Source: a virus. From it: a stretch of DNA of 20,095 bases. Position numbers and translations under genes: made by a program. Location of the stretch: positions 1 through 20,095 of IMG/VR virus record IMGVR_UViG_3300033571_023830; one strand, written 5' to 3'. How positions within the stretch are numbered: the stretch's first letter is position 1; the number at the start of each line of letters is the position of its first letter. This document shows positions 1,694-20,095 of this stretch, piece after piece. The notes under the pieces are model-generated. The model was given only the letters and a program-made list of their open reading frames with translations. It was not told the origin of the DNA and did no database searches.

Positions 1694-2110
1694 ATGAAGG
1701 CAGACGCATTTAAGAAATTAATAAAAGAAGCAGTAAGAGAAGTGCTTAGAGAAGAGTTAGCAGGTACGCTAACAGAAGCACCTGTAAAACAAACTTCAAA
1801 AGTTACAAAATTTGAACCATATAAGCCAACTGTTAGTAGACCAGTATCAACAGGAGACCCTATTATGGACTTATTGGAAGAAACAAAAGCAAGTATGAAA
1901 CAAGACCCAGGTGTAGGATATTATCAAGATATGTCTCAATTTGTTCAAGCACCAGGATTAGGGGAAGATACATTTAAACCTACAATGATGGAAGAAGGTT
2001 TTTCAAGATCAGAACCAGGTTTAGATCTTTCACAGTTTGATTTTGTAAAAAATGCATCTGCTGTTTTTAAAGCATCGCAGCAGAAGGATAAAGAAAGATT
2101 CGGAGGATAA
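1694..2110 (+). CDS. Small phage protein with N-terminal amphipathic helix
   Basis: A 138-residue protein of unknown function. Residues 5-22 (AFKKLIKEAVREVLREEL) form a clear Lys/Arg/Glu amphipathic helix. The rest is Pro-, Ser- and Gln-rich and probably extended or disordered (EPYKPTVSRPVSTGDP, then MSQFVQAPGLGEDTF). It begins 17 nt after the previous stop, in an AT-rich leader with no Shine-Dalgarno motif, and ends in a TAATG overlap with gp25. The GGAGG just before that overlap encodes its final Gly-Gly residues and is only 3 nt from the next ATG, so it may not act as a ribosome site. N-terminal helices of this kind recur on small virion-associated proteins of T4-like phages. A structural or chaperone role is possible but unproven. 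Confidence 0.55.
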   Translation: MKADAFKKLIKEAVREVLREELAGTLTEAPVKQTSKVTKFEPYKPTVSRPVSTGDPIMDLLEETKASMKQDPGVGYYQDMSQFVQAPGLGEDTFKPTMMEEGFSRSEPGLDLSQFDFVKNASAVFKASQQKDKERFGG

Positions 2111-10456: not shown

Positions 10457-10493
10457 AAGGTAGCTTGGATTTAAAATAATAAAACTGTATATT

Positions 10494-12185: not shown

Positions 12186-13079
12186 ATGAGTGCTTACAAA
12201 AAATTAAACAAACAAGATGCTTACATAACTACCTATACTGCTCATAAAACATGGGCAGTAACAGGAAGTGCTACCACATCTTATGGCATTAATGTAATTC
12301 AAGCAACAGGTAGTTACCTAAGCAGTTTACATCAGCTATACTATCCAAATAAAATATCAGGAAGTATTATATCACATTCCTACGATTACTATAATCAAAC
12401 TACATTAAACTACCCCTCATCAAGAAACTTAGCTGTAAATTCTAATATATATTCTATTCCTAGAGATTTATTTGGAGTAAATATAAAACCAGCATCTTTC
12501 CAAATAAAACTCACAAATATAGACAGAGGGTTATACGTATCAGGAGGGTATTGGACTTCTTCCTATGAAGCAAACCTTGTAGATCCAACAACAGGTTCTG
12601 TAAAAATTAACGATGATGGAGAGGGTAATCTGTACCTATCAGGAAGTATACCAGTACTATACTTAGGGGATATTATATATCCACATGGATTAGCCATAAT
12701 AACCGATCCAGCTTACGATTATTTAGTAGATTCAGTTACATTAGATGAAATTTCATGGCAAACAAGTCATCCTATTTTTACTCATAACTACCACTGTAAA
12801 ATAAGAGAATCAGAATTTAACTTTACATATAACCCATCAGCAATATCAAGCTCAGCAGTGACAACGTATGATAATGAAGGAGCTATTTATAATATATCTC
12901 AATCAATATCGAAAGGAATCTTAAACGATAATATAACAGGTAGTGCATTTCAACCATACATTACAACAGTAGGATTATATAATGACGCAAATGAATTGAT
13001 AGCAGTAGGTAAAATGGCACAACCAGTCCCTAAACCAGCAAATACAGAAATGACAATAATAGTTAAAATAGACATATAA
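12186..13079 (+). CDS. Tail/baseplate structural protein, paralogue 2
   Basis: A 297-residue protein carrying the same C-terminal module as its upstream neighbour (residues about 205-297) after an unrelated-looking Tyr/Ser/Thr-rich N-terminal region (MSAYKKLNKQDAYITTYTAH). The start at 12186 is preferred over the ATG at 12182. The latter overlaps the upstream TAA but opens a different frame that stops after 21 codons. It ends in a TAATG overlap with the SHAEG fibre gene, so production of this protein and the fibre is probably coupled. It may act as an adaptor between baseplate and fibre; that is inference from adjacency. Confidence 0.65.
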   Translation: MSAYKKLNKQDAYITTYTAHKTWAVTGSATTSYGINVIQATGSYLSSLHQLYYPNKISGSIISHSYDYYNQTTLNYPSSRNLAVNSNIYSIPRDLFGVNIKPASFQIKLTNIDRGLYVSGGYWTSSYEANLVDPTTGSVKINDDGEGNLYLSGSIPVLYLGDIIYPHGLAIITDPAYDYLVDSVTLDEISWQTSHPIFTHNYHCKIRESEFNFTYNPSAISSSAVTTYDNEGAIYNISQSISKGILNDNITGSAFQPYITTVGLYNDANELIAVGKMAQPVPKPANTEMTIIVKIDI

Positions 13080-14230
13080 TGGCAATAACACTAAGATCAG
13101 TAACAGGATCAGCACTGTCACATCTACAAGTAGATACAAATTTCTCCTCATTAATATACTCAGCCTCTCAATCAGGCAGCAGTATCGCATTTCACACAAC
13201 AGGAAGTAGCACAATAAGTAAGCCACCCGCTAGTACGACAATAAACGTAGGACTTGGATTAAACACAACGGCAACAGGGCAATACTCTCATGCTGAAGGA
13301 ATTGGTACAACTGCTAGCGGACCTTATTCGCACGCTGAGGGAGAAGCTACATCTGCAACTGCATATGGTTCTCATGCAGAAGGAGTTAGTACACTAGCAC
13401 AAGGTGACAGTTCACACGCCGAAGGTGATAACTCAATAGCAGGCGGATATGCATCGCATGCAGAAGGATTTAATACATCAGCAAATGGAGATTGGTCACA
13501 TGCAGAAGGAAACCAGACAACAGCAGCAGGAAATTACTCACACGCAGAAGGAAGTAACACGTCAGCAAATGGAAATTATTCACATGCTGAAGGACATATT
13601 ACTGTATCTTCAGGACAGTATTCCCACGCTGAAGGAGTTACTACAACAGCAGCCGGAAATTATTCACATGCTGAAGGACAAGGCTCAATAGCGAATGGAG
13701 CTTACTCACATGCAGAGGGATTTACCACAATAGCATCAGGATCTCACTCACATGCTGAAGGTAACATTGCAGTATCAATAGGATCATGGTCACATGCTGA
13801 AGGATATAACACAAGAGCGTCAGGATCATTTTCACATGCTGAAGGACATACAACTCATGCAAAAGGAACTGCTGCACATGCTGAAGGACTTATTACATCT
13901 GCATCAGGAGACTATTCTCATGCTGAAGGAGGAGGTACAATAACTACAACGGACTATCAACATGCTCAAGGACTTTATAATGCAACTTCATCAATAGCAG
14001 CAGCATTTATGCATGGAAATGGATCTTCACATACATCTAGATCTAACCTTATACTCGCATATAATGATACAGTAGAAATAACAGGATCATTAAAGCTAAA
14101 AGATATATTAGTACTAGCACCAAGAACAACAACACCAACACCTACAGCAGGAATGGTAATAGTATCAGGTTCTGGAGCAGATCAACATATATATTGTTAC
14201 TTAAATAGTACTTGGAAACAATTAGACTAA
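13079..14230 (+). CDS. Tail fibre with YadA-type head repeats (SHAEG)
   Basis: A 383-residue protein. Residues 1-60 form a virion-attachment-like N-terminus (MAITLRSVTGSALSHLQVDT). Residues 70-298 hold 17 units of a 14-residue repeat: 15 with perfect SHAEG, one AHAEG and a final QHAQG. This is the left-handed parallel beta-roll motif of trimeric autotransporter adhesin heads such as YadA, which bind host surface molecules. Residues 300-345 (SSIAAAFMHGNGSSHTSRSN onward) probably cap the roll. The last 40 residues (PTAGMVIVSGSGADQHIYCY...STWKQLD) look like the short beta tip common at phage fibre ends. As a trimer it would form a slender fibre for host recognition. It has no signal peptide or membrane anchor, which separates it from a true autotransporter and fits a virion component. 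Confidence 0.85.
   Translation: MAITLRSVTGSALSHLQVDTNFSSLIYSASQSGSSIAFHTTGSSTISKPPASTTINVGLGLNTTATGQYSHAEGIGTTASGPYSHAEGEATSATAYGSHAEGVSTLAQGDSSHAEGDNSIAGGYASHAEGFNTSANGDWSHAEGNQTTAAGNYSHAEGSNTSANGNYSHAEGHITVSSGQYSHAEGVTTTAAGNYSHAEGQGSIANGAYSHAEGFTTIASGSHSHAEGNIAVSIGSWSHAEGYNTRASGSFSHAEGHTTHAKGTAAHAEGLITSASGDYSHAEGGGTITTTDYQHAQGLYNATSSIAAAFMHGNGSSHTSRSNLILAYNDTVEITGSLKLKDILVLAPRTTTPTPTAGMVIVSGSGADQHIYCYLNSTWKQLD
13286..13972 (+). repeat. Tandem 42-nt coding repeat (17 SHAEG units)
   Basis: Seventeen in-frame units of nominally 42 nt encode the beta-roll. The Ser-His-Ala-Glu-Gly core is almost constant as protein while its codons vary (TCA/TCT/TCG/TCC, CAT/CAC, GCT/GCA/GCC). The array is therefore not a fresh DNA expansion, although several neighbouring units share runs such as TTCACATGCTGAAGGA that could still recombine. 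Confidence 0.9.
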
Positions 14231-14585: not shown

Positions 14586-15035
14586 ATGTGGTTATATCAA
14601 AATAAAGAAATAAAAGAATTAGTAGATATGCCCGAAGACATCTTCGGGTTTATCTATGAAGTAACACATCTGCCAACAGGTAGAAAGTATTTAGGAAAGA
14701 AGCAACTTATTTCTGTTACAAAAAAACCTTTAGGTAAAAAAGAATTAGCTTTATTAACAGATAGAAGAGCAAAAACATATAAAATAGTAAAGAAAGAATC
14801 TGATTGGAAAACATATTATGGATCTCATTTAGAAATAAAGCAATTACTAAAAGAAGGTAAACAGTCGGAATTCTCAAGAGAAATTCTTATCTTTACACCA
14901 AATAAGAAATTGCATACTTACTACGAGAATAAGATGCTATTTATTAAAGAAGTAATAGAACCAGATTCTAATTATATTAATGACAATATAGAAGGAAGAT
15001 ATTTTAGAAAAGATTTTTATGATAAAACTGCTTAA
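14586..15035 (+). CDS. GIY-YIG-like endonuclease
   Basis: A 149-residue protein with the layout of small phage GIY-YIG nucleases: GFIYEV at residues 21-26 (GIY strand), KYLGKK at 34-39 (YIG strand), basic residues at 45-70, ESDWKTYYGS at 71-80, SREIL at 97-101, YYENK at 112-116 whose Glu would be the metal ligand, and the Asn-containing NYINDNI at 129-135. The family cuts DNA with one catalytic domain; phage members include homing and repair-type nucleases. There is no recognisable DNA-binding extension, so target specificity cannot be read. The gene overlaps the next by 17 nt. An inverted repeat lies 45 nt after its start. The superfamily call is by motif and the exact subfamily is unknown. 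Confidence 0.6.
   Translation: MWLYQNKEIKELVDMPEDIFGFIYEVTHLPTGRKYLGKKQLISVTKKPLGKKELALLTDRRAKTYKIVKKESDWKTYYGSHLEIKQLLKEGKQSEFSREILIFTPNKKLHTYYENKMLFIKEVIEPDSNYINDNIEGRYFRKDFYDKTA
14631..14648 (+). terminator. Strong inverted repeat inside nuclease gene start (possible attenuator/terminator)
   Basis: CCCGAAGA-CA-TCTTCGGG is a perfect 8-bp inverted repeat with a two-base centre (realistically a 7-bp stem with a tetraloop), followed by TTTAT. It is unusually GC-rich for this window and sits at codons 16-21 of the nuclease gene. It could end or reduce transcription coming from the fibre genes, or fold to limit translation of the nuclease. It also encodes MPEDIFG, so protein constraint explains part of the sequence. 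Confidence 0.4.
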
Positions 15036-15781: not shown

Positions 15782-16294
15782 ATGGATATTACACAACAAA
15801 TTTTAAAACCACAAACTCTTTCAGGAGAAGTAGTTGCATTACTAACTGAGAGATTAGGAGATGAGTATACAGCTCATTATTTTTACAGAAATGCATCAAA
15901 CTGGTGTGAAGAAAAAGCATACTTAAAAGCAGCAGCATTTTTTGCTAAAGAAGCAGCTAATGAATTAGAGCATGCTGAAAAAGTACAGAAGTATTTAGTA
16001 GACTGGAATGTAATTCCAACTATTCCAGCTGTTAATATGCAACCTGCCTTCAATTCATTAATCGATATTGTTAATAAAGCATATCAATTAGAGTATAACT
16101 TATTCTTACAATATAATGCAAACTCTGCAGAGATATTCCCAGGTGATATAGCAACTTTTGATTTCTTACAAGAGTTAAGAATTGGACAAACACAATCTGT
16201 AGCTGAATATGCAACTCTATTAAATGGAGCAGAGTTAGTAGATATCAATAATAAATTAGACGTTCTTTATTACGAAAATCAATATTTCGCATAA
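15782..16294 (+). CDS. Ferritin (FtnA-like, phage-encoded)
   Basis: A 170-residue four-helix-bundle protein resembling bacterial non-haem ferritin, which oxidises Fe(II) at a di-iron centre and stores iron in a 24-subunit shell. Visible ligand candidates are E28 in helix A (GDEYTAHYFY), the E61xxH64 pair in helix B (ELEHAEK), E104 in helix C (YQLEYNLFLQ) and Q136 in helix D (FDFLQELRIGQTQ). They align with E17, E50/H53, E94 and Q127 of E. coli FtnA. The acidic cluster that follows in FtnA helix D is replaced here by T-Q-S-V, so the third iron site and perhaps part of the second look weakened. The ending LDVLYYENQYF matches the FtnA tail, and the length is typical. It overlaps the cupin-like gene by one base. 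The family call is good; activity is unproven. Confidence 0.8.
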   Translation: MDITQQILKPQTLSGEVVALLTERLGDEYTAHYFYRNASNWCEEKAYLKAAAFFAKEAANELEHAEKVQKYLVDWNVIPTIPAVNMQPAFNSLIDIVNKAYQLEYNLFLQYNANSAEIFPGDIATFDFLQELRIGQTQSVAEYATLLNGAELVDINNKLDVLYYENQYFA

Positions 16295-16563: not shown

Positions 16564-16655
16564 TGGACGGAGGAAATGCCCCTTATTATTGGATAGCAGC
16601 AGTAACTATTTTAGGTATAGTACTGATTATAAAGGAATTTAAAGAAACTAAATAA
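16563..16655 (+). CDS. 30-residue single-span membrane protein
   Basis: A micro-gene with one-base overlaps on both sides: TGATG with the cupin-like gene and TAATG with the next gene. The product has a short N-terminus (MDGGNAPYY), a hydrophobic helix at residues 10-23 (WIAAVTILGIVLII) and a charged C-terminus (KEFKETK). By the positive-inside rule the charged tail would be cytoplasmic. The exact fit between two frames, the full 30 sense codons and the clean transmembrane pattern argue for a real gene. It could modulate the host membrane, assist lysis or anchor a neighbour. No family is recognised. Confidence 0.6.
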   Translation: MDGGNAPYYWIAAVTILGIVLIIKEFKETK

Positions 16656-17068
16656 TGAAAAAATCTGAATTAAGAAAATTAGTACTGGAAGTAATGGGAG
16701 GGTACGAACCGGATGGAAAAGGAAACCTTGTACGACATAACGATAAGTTTGATAGTACTAAGTTAAGTAATATTTTAATGAAAGTAGCTAAGGGACCTGT
16801 TAATGAAGATGATGAGGATGAGTTTTACTCCAAAGAAGAAGTGATAGATTACATTAAAAATCACCCACCTGTTAAATACTATAGAATTGGAGTAGGTCAA
16901 GGTGTATCAAGGGATTTAAGAGATGATGCAGAAGCAGCAATTGAACTAGTACAGAAATCTGGAGTAAATAAATACAAACTAAGCAGATACGGACAAGTTA
17001 TTCAGTTTAGTCTTCCATTTGATGAAAGACATGGTGACTTGGTAAGATCAATGGGTTCTTTAGACTAA
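16655..17068 (+). CDS. Hypothetical acidic phage protein with N-terminal helix
   Basis: A 137-residue protein of unknown function. It starts MKKSELRKLVLEVMGGYEPD, a short basic/amphipathic helix followed by a Gly turn, of the kind seen on several small proteins in this genome. Residues 50-62 are strongly acidic (NEDDEDEFYSKEE). Residues 74-137 look like a compact alpha/beta domain (KYYRIGVGQGVSRDLRDDAE, IELVQKSGVNKYKLSRYG, VIQFSLPFDERHG). Both ends are one-base TAATG overlaps, placing it firmly in the run from ferritin to the leader-peptide array. It could be a virion-packaged protein given its N-terminus, but I see no catalytic motif. Confidence 0.55.
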   Translation: MKKSELRKLVLEVMGGYEPDGKGNLVRHNDKFDSTKLSNILMKVAKGPVNEDDEDEFYSKEEVIDYIKNHPPVKYYRIGVGQGVSRDLRDDAEAAIELVQKSGVNKYKLSRYGQVIQFSLPFDERHGDLVRSMGSLD

Positions 17069-17508
17069 TGATAAGTCTTCAAAAAATATTAAAAGAGATC
17101 TTAGATCCAACTCAAGAATACCAAGAACTTGTAGACGATATTGTTGACCAAGGAGGAGAATATGTAGGAGAGGGAGACTATGGAGTTGTTTTTTTATTAG
17201 GAGATAGAATAGTAAAAGTGACTACTGATTCAGAAGAATTAGAAGATGCACAAAAAATAAAAGGACAAAAGACCAAGTATTTTGTTTACATATATGATGT
17301 AGAGGTTAGGAATCCAAAACTAGGAATTATTACAATGGAAAACCTAGAACCATATACAGCAGATCCAGATGAAATTCCAATTGATGAAATAATGGAAGAA
17401 GCAGATCAGCTAGACATTTATCCTGACCTAGAAGGACCAGGAGGTTCTATTAAAATAGACAACATCATGCAAGACAGAAGAGGTAAAATAAAAATAATAG
17501 ACGTATAA
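17068..17508 (+). CDS. Mini protein-kinase-like protein (probably degenerate)
   Basis: A 146-residue protein resembling a cut-down protein kinase fold. Residues 33-41 (VGEGDYGVV) match the glycine-rich loop and K50 in DRIVKVT matches the ATP-anchoring lysine. Acidic residues 57-60 could serve as the helix C glutamate. ITMENLEPY (88-96) sits where the hinge is expected. Near the end, KIDNIMQDRRGKIKIIDV resembles the catalytic-loop Asn (N132) and the Asp of DFG (D145), but the HxD motif before it is replaced by EGPGGS and the chain stops right after D145-V. It therefore lacks the activation loop and C-terminal lobe of a standard kinase (about 250 residues). It may bind ATP without phosphorylating, or be a minimal phage kinase. 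The TAATG at 17508 couples it to the leader-peptide array. Confidence 0.55.
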   Translation: MISLQKILKEILDPTQEYQELVDDIVDQGGEYVGEGDYGVVFLLGDRIVKVTTDSEELEDAQKIKGQKTKYFVYIYDVEVRNPKLGIITMENLEPYTADPDEIPIDEIMEEADQLDIYPDLEGPGGSIKIDNIMQDRRGKIKIIDV

Positions 17509-17579
17509 TGGAAAACACATTTGACTTAAAAAAATTCTTGGTAGAGAATAAATTAACTAGCAATTCTAGATTGTTAGAA
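17508..17579 (+). repeat. Repeated gene-start leader (copy 1 of at least 5)
   Basis: The first 72 nt are repeated at 18105-18176, 18725-18796 and 19423-19494, and the first 8 nt reappear at 20088. Bases 2-32 are identical in copies 1, 3 and 4, and copy 2 differs at one synonymous site. Bodies after the leader diverge much more, so the leader is under stronger constraint or is being homogenised by recombination. Confidence 0.9.
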
Positions 17580-18071
17580 GCAGAAGGAGCAATAACACCA
17601 GAAGAAGCAGCTCAAGTAGTAACAGCACAAGCAGATAAAATAGCACAGGATCCTACCGTTAAAAAAATAATTAATAATATAGTAAATGATCCAGCTGCTA
17701 AAAAAGAATTATTAAATTTAGCAAGTAAGAACGGAATTGCAGTAGATACAGTAAGTGAAGGTGCAGATGATCTTATTTATAAACTATCTCTAGGAATGGC
17801 TAAGAAAGCAGAAAGAGAAGAGGTAGATATGTCTGAATATGATACAGGTGATGGCAGTCCTAGTGTAGGGGGAGGATTATTTGGAGGAGGATTTTTAGGA
17901 GGAGTATTAGCAAACTATATAGCACCTCACTTTGAAGCACTATCACATCAGTGTGAAGGGTTATTTGGAGATATGGTAACTCACCCAAACGGATGGGTAA
18001 TCCCTGTAGGAGCACTTGTTGGAGCAATTATAGGTATGGCACTAGAAGTACTAGCCCAATCTCGAGACTAA
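17508..18071 (+). CDS. Leader-peptide array member A (distinct cargo)
   Basis: A 187-residue protein with the array leader (residues 1-24: MENTFDLKKFLVEN, then KLTSNSRLLE). The body is unlike that of the other three. Residues 31-75 are helical and rich in Ala/Lys (PEEAAQVVTAQADKIAQDP), residues 105-117 are acidic, residues 120-132 are glycine-rich (VGGGLFGGGFLGG) and residues 163-182 form a hydrophobic helix (WVIPVGALVGAIIGMALEVL) able to span a membrane. Two (L/I)-x-E sites occur in the leader (L11-V-E13 and L22-L-E24), matching the consensus for T4 prohead protease. It may be an internal head protein or an injected membrane-active protein. No known family is recognised, and the start is fixed by the TAATG overlap and the conserved leader. 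Confidence 0.6.
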   Translation: MENTFDLKKFLVENKLTSNSRLLEAEGAITPEEAAQVVTAQADKIAQDPTVKKIINNIVNDPAAKKELLNLASKNGIAVDTVSEGADDLIYKLSLGMAKKAEREEVDMSEYDTGDGSPSVGGGLFGGGFLGGVLANYIAPHFEALSHQCEGLFGDMVTHPNGWVIPVGALVGAIIGMALEVLAQSRD

Positions 18072-18085
18072 AACTACTAATACAG

Positions 18086-18093
18086 TATAAAAA
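18086..18093 (+). promoter_or_regulatory. Weak candidate late promoter (TATAAAAA)
   Basis: One mismatch from TATAAATA, located in the 33-nt gap before array member B and 11 nt upstream of its ATG. The spacing is like that of the octamer at 10494. Poly-A-rich leaders are common here, so this may be only a start-site context. Confidence 0.25.
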
Positions 18094-18104
18094 TAATTAA
18101 AGAA

Positions 18105-18722
18105 ATGGAAAATACATTTGACTTAAAAAAATTCTTAGTAGAGAATAAATTAACATCTAATTCTAGAATATTAGAAGCAGAGGTAGCACCACAAGCAGAT
18201 CCTGAAGCAGAACAGGATGCAAAACAAGGATTAAATGGAGCTTTAGCTCTACTACAACAAGGAGCAAATACTATTAAACCATCTCCAAAAGACGGACAAT
18301 TAGAAGAGTCAATGACTTTAGGATTGATAGTAGGGGCACCAGGTATTATCTCTTTATTAGGAAAAGGAGTAAATGGAATGGCTTCTCTATTTCAAAAAGA
18401 TAAAAAAAGCGGAACTGTAGTCGGTAATGCTCTAAAGAAATTTGGACATAGTTTAGAGCATAAATATATAGATGTAATTGGAGGTATGGTAAAAGCAGCT
18501 TTTCCAAAAAGATATGGACAGCAAGATGTTAATGATAAGACTACAGAATTATATAAAGTAGCACATGGAATATACGCATCAATGTTAGTAGCAGCTGCAG
18601 CATCAAGCGGACTGGAAGCAGCAAAAGCTCACAGCTTGATAGGATCAGGATTAGAAGGAGGATTATCAGCTTTTAAATCATCAGAAGTAGTAGATTTAGC
18701 AAAAAAAATAGCAGCGGTATAA
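18105..18722 (+). CDS. Leader-peptide array member B
   Basis: A 205-residue protein with the leader ending RILE (I22-L-E24). The body is shared with members C and D: KPSPKDGQLEESMTLG at residues 58-73, a hydrophobic GLIVGAPGIISLLGKGVNGM segment at 73-92, SLEHKYIDVIGGMVKAAFPK at 116-135, QQDVNDKTTELYKVAHGIYA at 139-158, a hydrophobic stretch at 159-170 and a final AKKIAAV. It is closest to member D through NG...FQ...GTVVG.AL. Two hydrophobic helices flank a charged middle, suggesting a membrane-interacting or amphipathic bundle protein. A 33-nt AT-rich gap without a Shine-Dalgarno motif precedes it. Function is unknown; a packaged or injected phage protein is my leading guess. Confidence 0.6.
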   Translation: MENTFDLKKFLVENKLTSNSRILEAEVAPQADPEAEQDAKQGLNGALALLQQGANTIKPSPKDGQLEESMTLGLIVGAPGIISLLGKGVNGMASLFQKDKKSGTVVGNALKKFGHSLEHKYIDVIGGMVKAAFPKRYGQQDVNDKTTELYKVAHGIYASMLVAAAASSGLEAAKAHSLIGSGLEGGLSAFKSSEVVDLAKKIAAV

Positions 18723-18725
18723 ATA
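18718..18725 (+). promoter_or_regulatory. TATAAATA overlapping the start of array member C
   Basis: A perfect octamer that covers the stop of member B (TAA) and the A of the next ATG. As a T4-type late promoter it would initiate inside the gene, so it is more likely a by-product of the stop-start junction than a functional promoter. Confidence 0.15.
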
Positions 18726-19381
18726 TGGAAAACACATTTGACTTAAAAAAATTCTTAGTAGAGAATAGGCTAACTAGCAATTCTAGAATGTTAAATGAGG
18801 AAGATAGTAAATTAGAAGCCGATATTAAAAATAAGCTCTCACAATTATCATCTGAACTAATCTCTATAGCTGCTACAGCTAAACCATCCGCTAAAGATGA
18901 TGAATTAGGTGAAAGTGTTTTAGCAGGTGCTGGTTTAGTGATAGGAGCTCCTGGATTACTTACTTTCTTAGGTAAAGCAGCCGATAGTATAGCAGATATT
19001 GCTAAAAAAGGAACAGATTCAGCAGTATTTAAGAAAGGTACTTACCAAAAAGGAGGAAGTAAGAACATACCGCAAACAATAGGAAAAGGATTAAGAGATG
19101 CGGGACATTGGTTGGAAGACAAGTATGTAAAGGCATTAGGTTTATACCTCACCAAAACGTATCCCGATAAATACGCCGGCCAGAAAGTAGAAGATAAGAC
19201 ATCTGAATTATATGACCACGCTCATATGATATATGCTGCATTACTTGTAGGAGCTGGTATAGCTACAGGATTAGAAGCAGTTAGCTCATTTGGAACAATT
19301 GTAGGAGGATTGGAAGGAGGAGCAACAGCTTTAAAAGCAAAAGAAGTGGTGGATATAGCACGAAAAATAGCAGCAGCTTAG
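18725..19381 (+). CDS. Leader-peptide array member C
   Basis: A 218-residue protein with the same leader (ending RMLNEE, with L23-N-E25 as a candidate cleavage site). The body aligns with B and D: AKPSAKDDELGES at 52-64, LVIGAPGLLTFLGKAADSIA at 71-90, WLEDKYVKALGLYLTKTYPD at 129-148, GQKVEDKTSELYDHAHMIYA at 152-171, GLEGG near 195-199 and a final ARKIAAA. It differs from B and D by a basic Gly/Lys-rich insertion at residues 103-122 (KKGTYQKGGSKNIPQTIGKG), which could contact DNA or lipid. The gap from member B is only 2 nt, so the two are almost fused. It ends with TAG, one of only two in the window. Confidence 0.6.
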   Translation: MENTFDLKKFLVENRLTSNSRMLNEEDSKLEADIKNKLSQLSSELISIAATAKPSAKDDELGESVLAGAGLVIGAPGLLTFLGKAADSIADIAKKGTDSAVFKKGTYQKGGSKNIPQTIGKGLRDAGHWLEDKYVKALGLYLTKTYPDKYAGQKVEDKTSELYDHAHMIYAALLVGAGIATGLEAVSSFGTIVGGLEGGATALKAKEVVDIARKIAAA

Positions 19382-19422
19382 TTATAGAAAATATAAAGTA
19401 TTTATAGTAAAGATATATTAAA

Positions 19423-20085
19423 GTGGAAAACACATTTGACTTAAAAAAATTCTTAATAGAAAATAAGCTGACAGTAAATTCTAGACTATTAGAATTAAAT
19501 TCTGAATCAGACGAATTAACAGGTTCCGATGTACAGCAAGGATTGGATAAAGGTTTAGCCATAATTCAACAAGGAGCTGCTAACGCTAAACCTGTAGAGT
19601 CAGAAGACACTTTAGATGAATCACTTATACTGGGAACAATCTTAACAGCACCATCATTACTAAAAGTATTAGGAAATGCAGTAAATGGAATCTCATATAT
19701 CTTCCAGGACAAAGACGCAAATGGAACTGTAGTAGGGGATGCTCTTGTAAAATGGGGGGACAGTTTAAAGGAAAAGTATATGGAAGGAATAGCAGCACTA
19801 TTAGTAAAACTATTCCCTGAAAAATTTAAAGGCCAAGATGTAAATGATAAAACCTCGTTATTATACAAAGTATCTTTAGGATTATACGTATCAGTATTAG
19901 TTGGAGTAACATTTACAGCAGGCACACCACTTATGGCAGCAACTAAGGCAGCTCCAGTTACAACTACAGCATCTTATCTAGGAGCTTCAATGTCACCAGC
20001 AATAATAAAATTAATAAAGAAATATCGTTCTGTATTTACACCTGAAGAAGTAACAACAATAGCAAAAAAACTAACACCAGCATAA
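19423..20085 (+). CDS. Leader-peptide array member D (GTG start)
   Basis: A 220-residue protein whose start is GTG: the first codon of the leader, ATG in the other copies, is GTG here while the following 31 bases match. The leader reads ENTFDLKKFLIENKLTVN and ends SRLLE (L22-L-E24). The body resembles B most closely (VQQGLDKGLAIIQQGAANAK, GTVVGDALVKWGDSLKEKY and QDVNDKTSLLYKVSLGLYVS). The C-terminus is replaced: after residue 165 a longer hydrophobic Ala/Thr-rich tail (GTPLMAATKAAPVTTTASYL) leads to MSPAIIKLIKKYRSVF and AKKLTPA. A weaker start codon could lower its dose relative to its neighbours. The 41-nt leader upstream holds only AT-rich sequence (TATAAAGT and TATTTATA). Confidence 0.6.
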   Translation: MENTFDLKKFLIENKLTVNSRLLELNSESDELTGSDVQQGLDKGLAIIQQGAANAKPVESEDTLDESLILGTILTAPSLLKVLGNAVNGISYIFQDKDANGTVVGDALVKWGDSLKEKYMEGIAALLVKLFPEKFKGQDVNDKTSLLYKVSLGLYVSVLVGVTFTAGTPLMAATKAAPVTTTASYLGASMSPAIIKLIKKYRSVFTPEEVTTIAKKLTPA

Positions 20086-20087
20086 TT

Positions 20088-20095
20088 ATGGAAAA
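20088..20095 (+). CDS. Start of array member E (cut by window edge)
   Basis: Two bases after the stop of member D, ATGGAAAA begins and the window ends. These eight bases are identical to the first eight of members A, B and C (ATGGAAAA), so a fifth leader gene very probably continues to the right. Nothing can be said about its body. Confidence 0.45.

Follow-up and report, generated by a model that had tools for sequence, protein, structure and literature searches.

In the window, i.e. the whole 20,095-nucleotide stretch of DNA analysed here, positions 17508-20095 contain four complete genes, arranged head to tail, and the initial eight bases of a fifth (Table 1). The proteins encoded by genes 1 to 4 all begin with M-E-N-T-F-D-L-K-K-F-L-(V/I)-E-N-(K/R)-L-T-x-N-S-R. 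A preliminary description of this DNA had reported one 21-residue leader on four genes and at the start of a fifth, and the open reading frames and their translations agree with it. It had also placed (L/I)-x-E motifs at residues 11-13 and 22-25 of each leader. L-(V/I)-E is indeed found at residues 11-13 in 4/4 window leaders; the second motif occupies residues 22-24 in genes 1, 2 and 4 and is shifted by one residue, to 23-25, in gene 3, so that the leaders are 24-25 residues long. With a leader HMM, the window and immuto copies scored 38-50 bits and the best other ORF of those sequences about 4, and the shared leader is therefore not due to chance.

The bodies behind the leader had been described as diverged, with one of them unrelated. 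This holds for gene 1, whose match to gene 2 is confined to the first 33 residues and whose body is unrelated. The bodies of genes 2-4, however, are homologous (44-48% identity to gene 2) and form a single family, termed family A, rather than separate effectors. For gene 2, an all-helical structure is predicted in which the leader junction is disordered (pLDDT <50); the prediction for gene 1 is of low confidence (pLDDT 62). In family A, L66 and E68 are invariant in 16 homologs and are followed by S, A or G; the mature form may therefore start at residue 69, which is located just ahead of hydrophobic helices.

Table 1. Leader-bearing genes and associated features at the right end of the window.
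Feature	Coordinates	Strand	Remarks
Left anchor of putative cargo cassette	17068..17508	+	Fixed; immuto_178 homolog
Putative cargo gene 1, 187 aa	17508..18071	+	Leader and helical body with Gly-rich hydrophobic C-terminal segments; immuto_179 homolog
Gene 1 leader, residues 1-24	17508..17579	+	Ends L-L-E
Putative cargo gene 2, 205 aa	18105..18722	+	Family A body, predicted all-helical (pLDDT 80.8)
Gene 2 leader, residues 1-24	18105..18176	+	Ends I-L-E
Gene 2 second candidate protease site	18300..18308	+	L66-E67-E68 before S69; family A alignment
Putative cargo gene 3, 218 aa	18725..19381	+	Family A body
Gene 3 leader, residues 1-25	18725..18799	+	Ends L-N-E (M-L-N-E after the shared 21)
Weak candidate late-promoter element TATTTATA	19399..19406	+	24 bases upstream of gene 4
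Putative cargo gene 4, 220 aa	19423..20085	+	GTG start; family A body
Gene 4 leader, residues 1-24	19423..19494	+	Ends L-L-E
Start of fifth gene, ATGGAAAA	20088..20095	+	Fits the same leader; truncated at the window end

The window is a 20 kb fragment from a virus record and, as read from its genes, is a piece of a T4-like myovirus genome related to Flavobacterium phage immuto (MW353175, 160 kb). The order of the baseplate genes, the tail-fibre genes and their neighbours is the same in both, immuto_179 is the homolog of gene 1, and immuto 171, 172, 177 and 178 match genes that precede it. The head genes of immuto comprise a terminase, a T4 gp20-type portal, an S77 prohead protease (gene 201), a scaffold-like gene (204) and a Gp23-type capsid protein; terminase, portal, S77 protease, scaffold and Gp23 capsid genes were not found within the 20 kb window. 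We infer Flavobacterium as the host of the window phage from immuto only.

Several other window genes were recorded. A fibre-like protein (13079-14230, + strand) contains SHAEG repeats matching YadA head repeats (PF05658), and similar repeats are present in immuto_170. A SegE-type GIY-YIG endonuclease (14586-15035, +; PF19835, E 7.6e-26) occupies a position conserved in relatives. A phage-encoded ferritin-like protein (15782-16294, +; PF00210, E 3.5e-18) is flanked by 172- and 173-like genes and has no counterpart at the corresponding position in immuto.

Distribution and genomic sites of the leader

The leader core was searched for with a degenerate DNA pattern, which yielded 89 stretches in viral contigs and one in a species-genome collection. 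A scan of other phages had been proposed in the preliminary description, and it bore out the expectation of one leader on many unrelated bodies: the leader is N-terminal in 95 distinct proteins of the viral contigs. Single-linkage clustering of the bodies at E 1e-3 resulted in 51 clusters, an upper bound on the number of unrelated families, as this threshold overcounts families where proteins are short or fast-evolving; the viral contigs, moreover, are uneven samples. The phages that bear the leader form a group of large T4-like phages, of which one cultured relative, immuto, infects Flavobacterium (sp. LMO8). The single species-genome match sits in a contig with T4-type terminase, portal and capsid genes, and a bacterial origin of the leader is therefore unsupported. 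A signal peptide is disfavoured as well, the leader having no hydrophobic core (best 11-residue mean -0.09).

Per-column information is high along the leader, about 1-1.6 bits at L-x-E and at most 0.5 bits from the next residue on. At the leader end, (L/I/M/V)-x-E is present in 91 of the 95 proteins against 18% expected from equally long body stretches; with L or I only in the first position, the values are 80/95 and 10%. Since this region lay outside the search pattern, the result is independent, which is not the case for the inner L-V-E (residues 11-13) that belonged to the pattern. No enrichment of L-x-E was detected inside the bodies (z about 1), and the residue following the putative cleavage E is variable. 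Leader codons are more uniform across phages than body codons (e.g. TTA at L11, 88/95), and within the window, synonymous codons are shared more among the leaders than among the bodies. This pattern suggests that the tag spread by recombination, which would also explain the exchange of cargo.

In 13 relatives, one to four genes lie in the interval from the 178-like gene to the primase, and 22 of the 24 ORFs in it carry the leader. These loci were mostly found via the leader, so that its presence was selected; the near-absence of other genes was not. The interval is empty in two relatives (126 and 46 bp). On this comparison it is a plug-in cassette for putative cargo, the right anchor of which, the primase, lies past the end of the window. 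Other recurrent sites of leader genes are just upstream of the terminase and, in many contigs, between the S77 prohead protease and the scaffold. Near or between the tube and tape measure genes there are a few more leader genes (L045, L051, L108), and the window array adjoins tail-fibre genes.

The preliminary description had called for the prohead protease to be found in the rest of the genome. An S77 protease is encoded by immuto, by 14/14 first-leader contigs of at least 46 kb and, among the matches listed, by 6/6 contigs of at least 89 kb with the RMQKLAG leader described below, and not by the 20 kb of the window itself. Gp23 capsid protein was found in 9/9 relatives, and T4-type head genes (portal, scaffold, Gp23) are present in the relatives and in immuto. 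As all of these contigs belong to T4-like phages, where S77 is expected, the co-occurrence with S77 indicates compatibility and not an independent association.

Alternative leaders and the scaffold C-terminus

On contigs L009 and L010, the body of gene 2 (60% identity) stands behind a different start with R-M-Q-(K/Q)-L-A-G-(L/I)-I. In a peptide scan this second leader, RMQKLAGII(T)E, was N-terminal in at least 101 proteins with at least 64 body clusters; its terminal residue, for which the pattern allowed D or E, is E in 100 of 101 among the matches listed. Both window body families, and several others, occur with either leader. The peptide R-(M/W)-Q-(K/R/Q)-L-A-G-(I/L)-I also forms the C-terminus of the scaffold in 19/19 scaffolds recovered from relatives. 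Since the scaffold tail and the start of putative cargo proteins have this peptide in common, we infer that both would bind one and the same partner in the prohead core.

A third start, MKKSELVKLIKEELN, precedes a distant family-A body in immuto_176. Lysine/leucine-rich helical starts resembling it are carried by two window genes, MKKSELRKLVLE by the gene at 16655-17068 (+) and MKADAFKKLIKEAVREVL by that at 1694-2110 (+). These starts are possibly further docking peptides, one of them in the baseplate cluster.

The first leader is also found at the N-terminus of the core-like immuto_194 family, which is encoded beside the terminase. In three phages the family ends in A-L-Q-E-G-F-D-L-R-K-F-L-A-E-N-R-K and so has the leader at both ends, and in about ten other phages an extra domain follows the inner leader copy. 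In these fusions, one x-x-E (such as L-Q-E, L-A-E or L-S-E) usually stands just before the inner copy and another after it, a layout that would be expected of a processed fusion. The roughly ten fusions are not independent events because their sequences share ancestry.

Properties and expression of the leader genes

Pfam and PHROGs searches returned no informative family for the window bodies, nor for 57 and 89 leader proteins; the matches were single weak ones (e.g. PF21769 at 1.9e-4). With Foldseek, no BFVD or PDB structure matched the gene 2 model at E 0.001 or better, and a profile search of PDB sequences gave no match. TetR-type helical chains, the best VIA-align result for the gene 2 model, were rejected, as their Z of 6.2 is within the chance range for helical proteins.

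The bodies are mostly acidic, with 35 of 51 cluster bodies below pI 5.5, which leaves room for a core-component role of some members. Mature proteins of 17-21 kDa are small, but with pI 4.5-8.1 they do not correspond to the small basic mature parts of the T4 internal proteins, a property that the mechanism does not need.

The T4 late promoter TATAAATA is not distinctive. TATTTATA was found upstream of 6/89 leader genes compared with 1.6% of random stretches (p 0.004), a signal too weak to assign late expression of the leader genes to this element. It also occurs at 10490 (+) and is enriched upstream of late genes in immuto.

A candidate capsid-targeting propeptide and its alternatives

According to reviews of T4, its internal proteins vary greatly and have only the capsid-targeting sequence (CTS) conserved (PMC3012670), and the CTS may be a general route by which T4-like phages take in various proteins (PMC9026906). 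We consider it probable that the leader is an interchangeable N-terminal capsid-targeting propeptide similar to those of T4 internal proteins, cut after L-x-E, and that the body is kept and probably injected. The leader would act as a short helix that docks the precursor onto the prohead core as it assembles. The S77 prohead protease would then cut after (L/I/M/V)-x-E at the leader end and, in family A, perhaps a second time at the invariant L66-x-E68. The released body would stay inside the filled head and probably enter the host along with the DNA. RMQKLAGIITE, also the scaffold end, would be at least one other docking peptide, interchangeable with the first leader.

Support for these steps is best for packaging into the forming head, which is strongly suggested by the constant leader on unrelated bodies, the sharp L-x-E boundary, leader swapping, head-operon positions, the scaffold-tail match and the presence of S77 in relatives. 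Cleavage of the leader comes next and is likely; injection has the least support and, like an effector function of the bodies or an anti-restriction role such as that of IPI, is unproven, the bodies matching no informative family and being mostly acidic. Counted against the proposal are the acidic bodies unlike basic IPII, the array beside tail-fibre genes and leader genes near tube and tape measure, the lack of L-x-E enrichment in bodies, the variable residue after E, and a protease that lies outside the window and whose type, S77, is only permissive.

The proteins resemble T4 IPI-IPIII and Alt, which are processed by gp21 (PMC9026906, PMC3012670), in having a short N-terminal propeptide on small proteins with divergent mature parts; the L/I-x-E propeptide end and the S77 protease are also alike. 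T4 Alt is cleaved at both termini (PMC9026906), as the immuto_194 family may be. Within the leader, L-K-K-F-L-V-E resembles Y-Q-E-F-I-A-E of T4 IPII (X04567), a likeness in F-(L/I)-x-E only that is too short for a homology test. The leader is 24-25 residues long, whereas the T4 CTS has 10-19, and the bodies are mostly acidic, in contrast to the basic T4 IPII. Here, moreover, the body families number in the dozens, at least two tags are interchangeable, one of them equals the scaffold C-terminus, there are fusions to a core protein, and packaging is predicted.

The Dar proteins of phage P1 (PMC9024508, PMC12810830) are comparable in that the 30 N-terminal residues of DarB direct a reporter to the head, the prohead protease cuts DarA, and the proteins enter the cell; unlike the proteins here, Dar proteins have N-termini without a consensus and are larger, known anti-restriction factors. 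In the giant phages SPN3US/phiKZ (PMC5694885), the ejection proteins are likewise numerous head proteins whose propeptides are removed after x-x-E, and the paralogs gp53 and gp54 have the first 15 residues in common. Their propeptides, in contrast, are often >100 residues long, and PMC5694885 reports no single tag on many unrelated bodies. In the open-access literature, which leaves most subscription papers outside its coverage, we found no description of the present leaders.

The system fits the T4 CTS principle and differs in repertoire size, leader length and sequence, interchangeable tags, scaffold-tail match and fusions. It had been introduced as a possible "analogous but separate" system and is better regarded as a lineage-specific elaboration of the T4 principle. 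The idea of a cargo tag like that of T4 internal proteins is strongly supported by unrelated bodies, leader swapping, the scaffold tail, S77 and head-operon sites; the idea of separate effectors did not survive for genes 2-4, which are one family.

Alternatively, leader proteins could be parts of the prohead core or scaffold that enter via the leader and are then consumed, expelled or kept as structural filler, rather than injected effectors. Their genes lie between protease and scaffold and beside the terminase, the alternative leader is common to the scaffold, and the bodies are mostly acidic. We nevertheless regard this as unlikely, since essential assembly parts would not be expected to have so many unrelated bodies or to lie in an optional cassette, which can be empty. 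Docking on the tail or baseplate instead of inside the head is quite improbable: the window array follows tail-fibre genes and the leader genes of L045, L051 and L108 lie near tube and tape measure, but the swapped-in leader is the scaffold C-terminus, sites between S77 and scaffold are frequent, and the leader ends at an L-x-E boundary. The uniform leader codons and the synonymous codons shared by window leaders would also suit a leader that serves mainly as a DNA homology arm for recombining 5' gene ends, its peptide having no targeting role. We give this little credence; conservation ends at E and C-terminal copies exist, and a purely DNA-level role is unlikely because the same bodies also swap to an unrelated peptide encoded by unrelated DNA. 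Finally, homologous bodies 2-4 share the leader, but a leader built into a single conserved fold, named in the preliminary description as a possible outcome, is refuted by its presence on many unrelated bodies (body 1 and about 50 other clusters), and the leader junction has a pLDDT <50.

Returning to the capsid-targeting propeptide, we see an even chance that it reflects a general address-tag system of a mostly uncultured T4-like clade, in which interchangeable prohead-docking peptides, one matching the scaffold C-terminus, bring protein families in the order of a hundred into the head, some of the cargo arriving as a core-protein fusion with cuts on either side of the tag. Proteins that phages inject are difficult to detect, being small and variable and lacking known relatives; a constant tag could allow candidate carried-in proteins of these phages to be picked out straight from sequence. 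The likeness of one tag to the scaffold C-terminus points to a concrete docking mechanism, open to testing in a cultured phage. If the address-tag reading is true, the tags would provide a catalogue of a large, hidden set of injected proteins.
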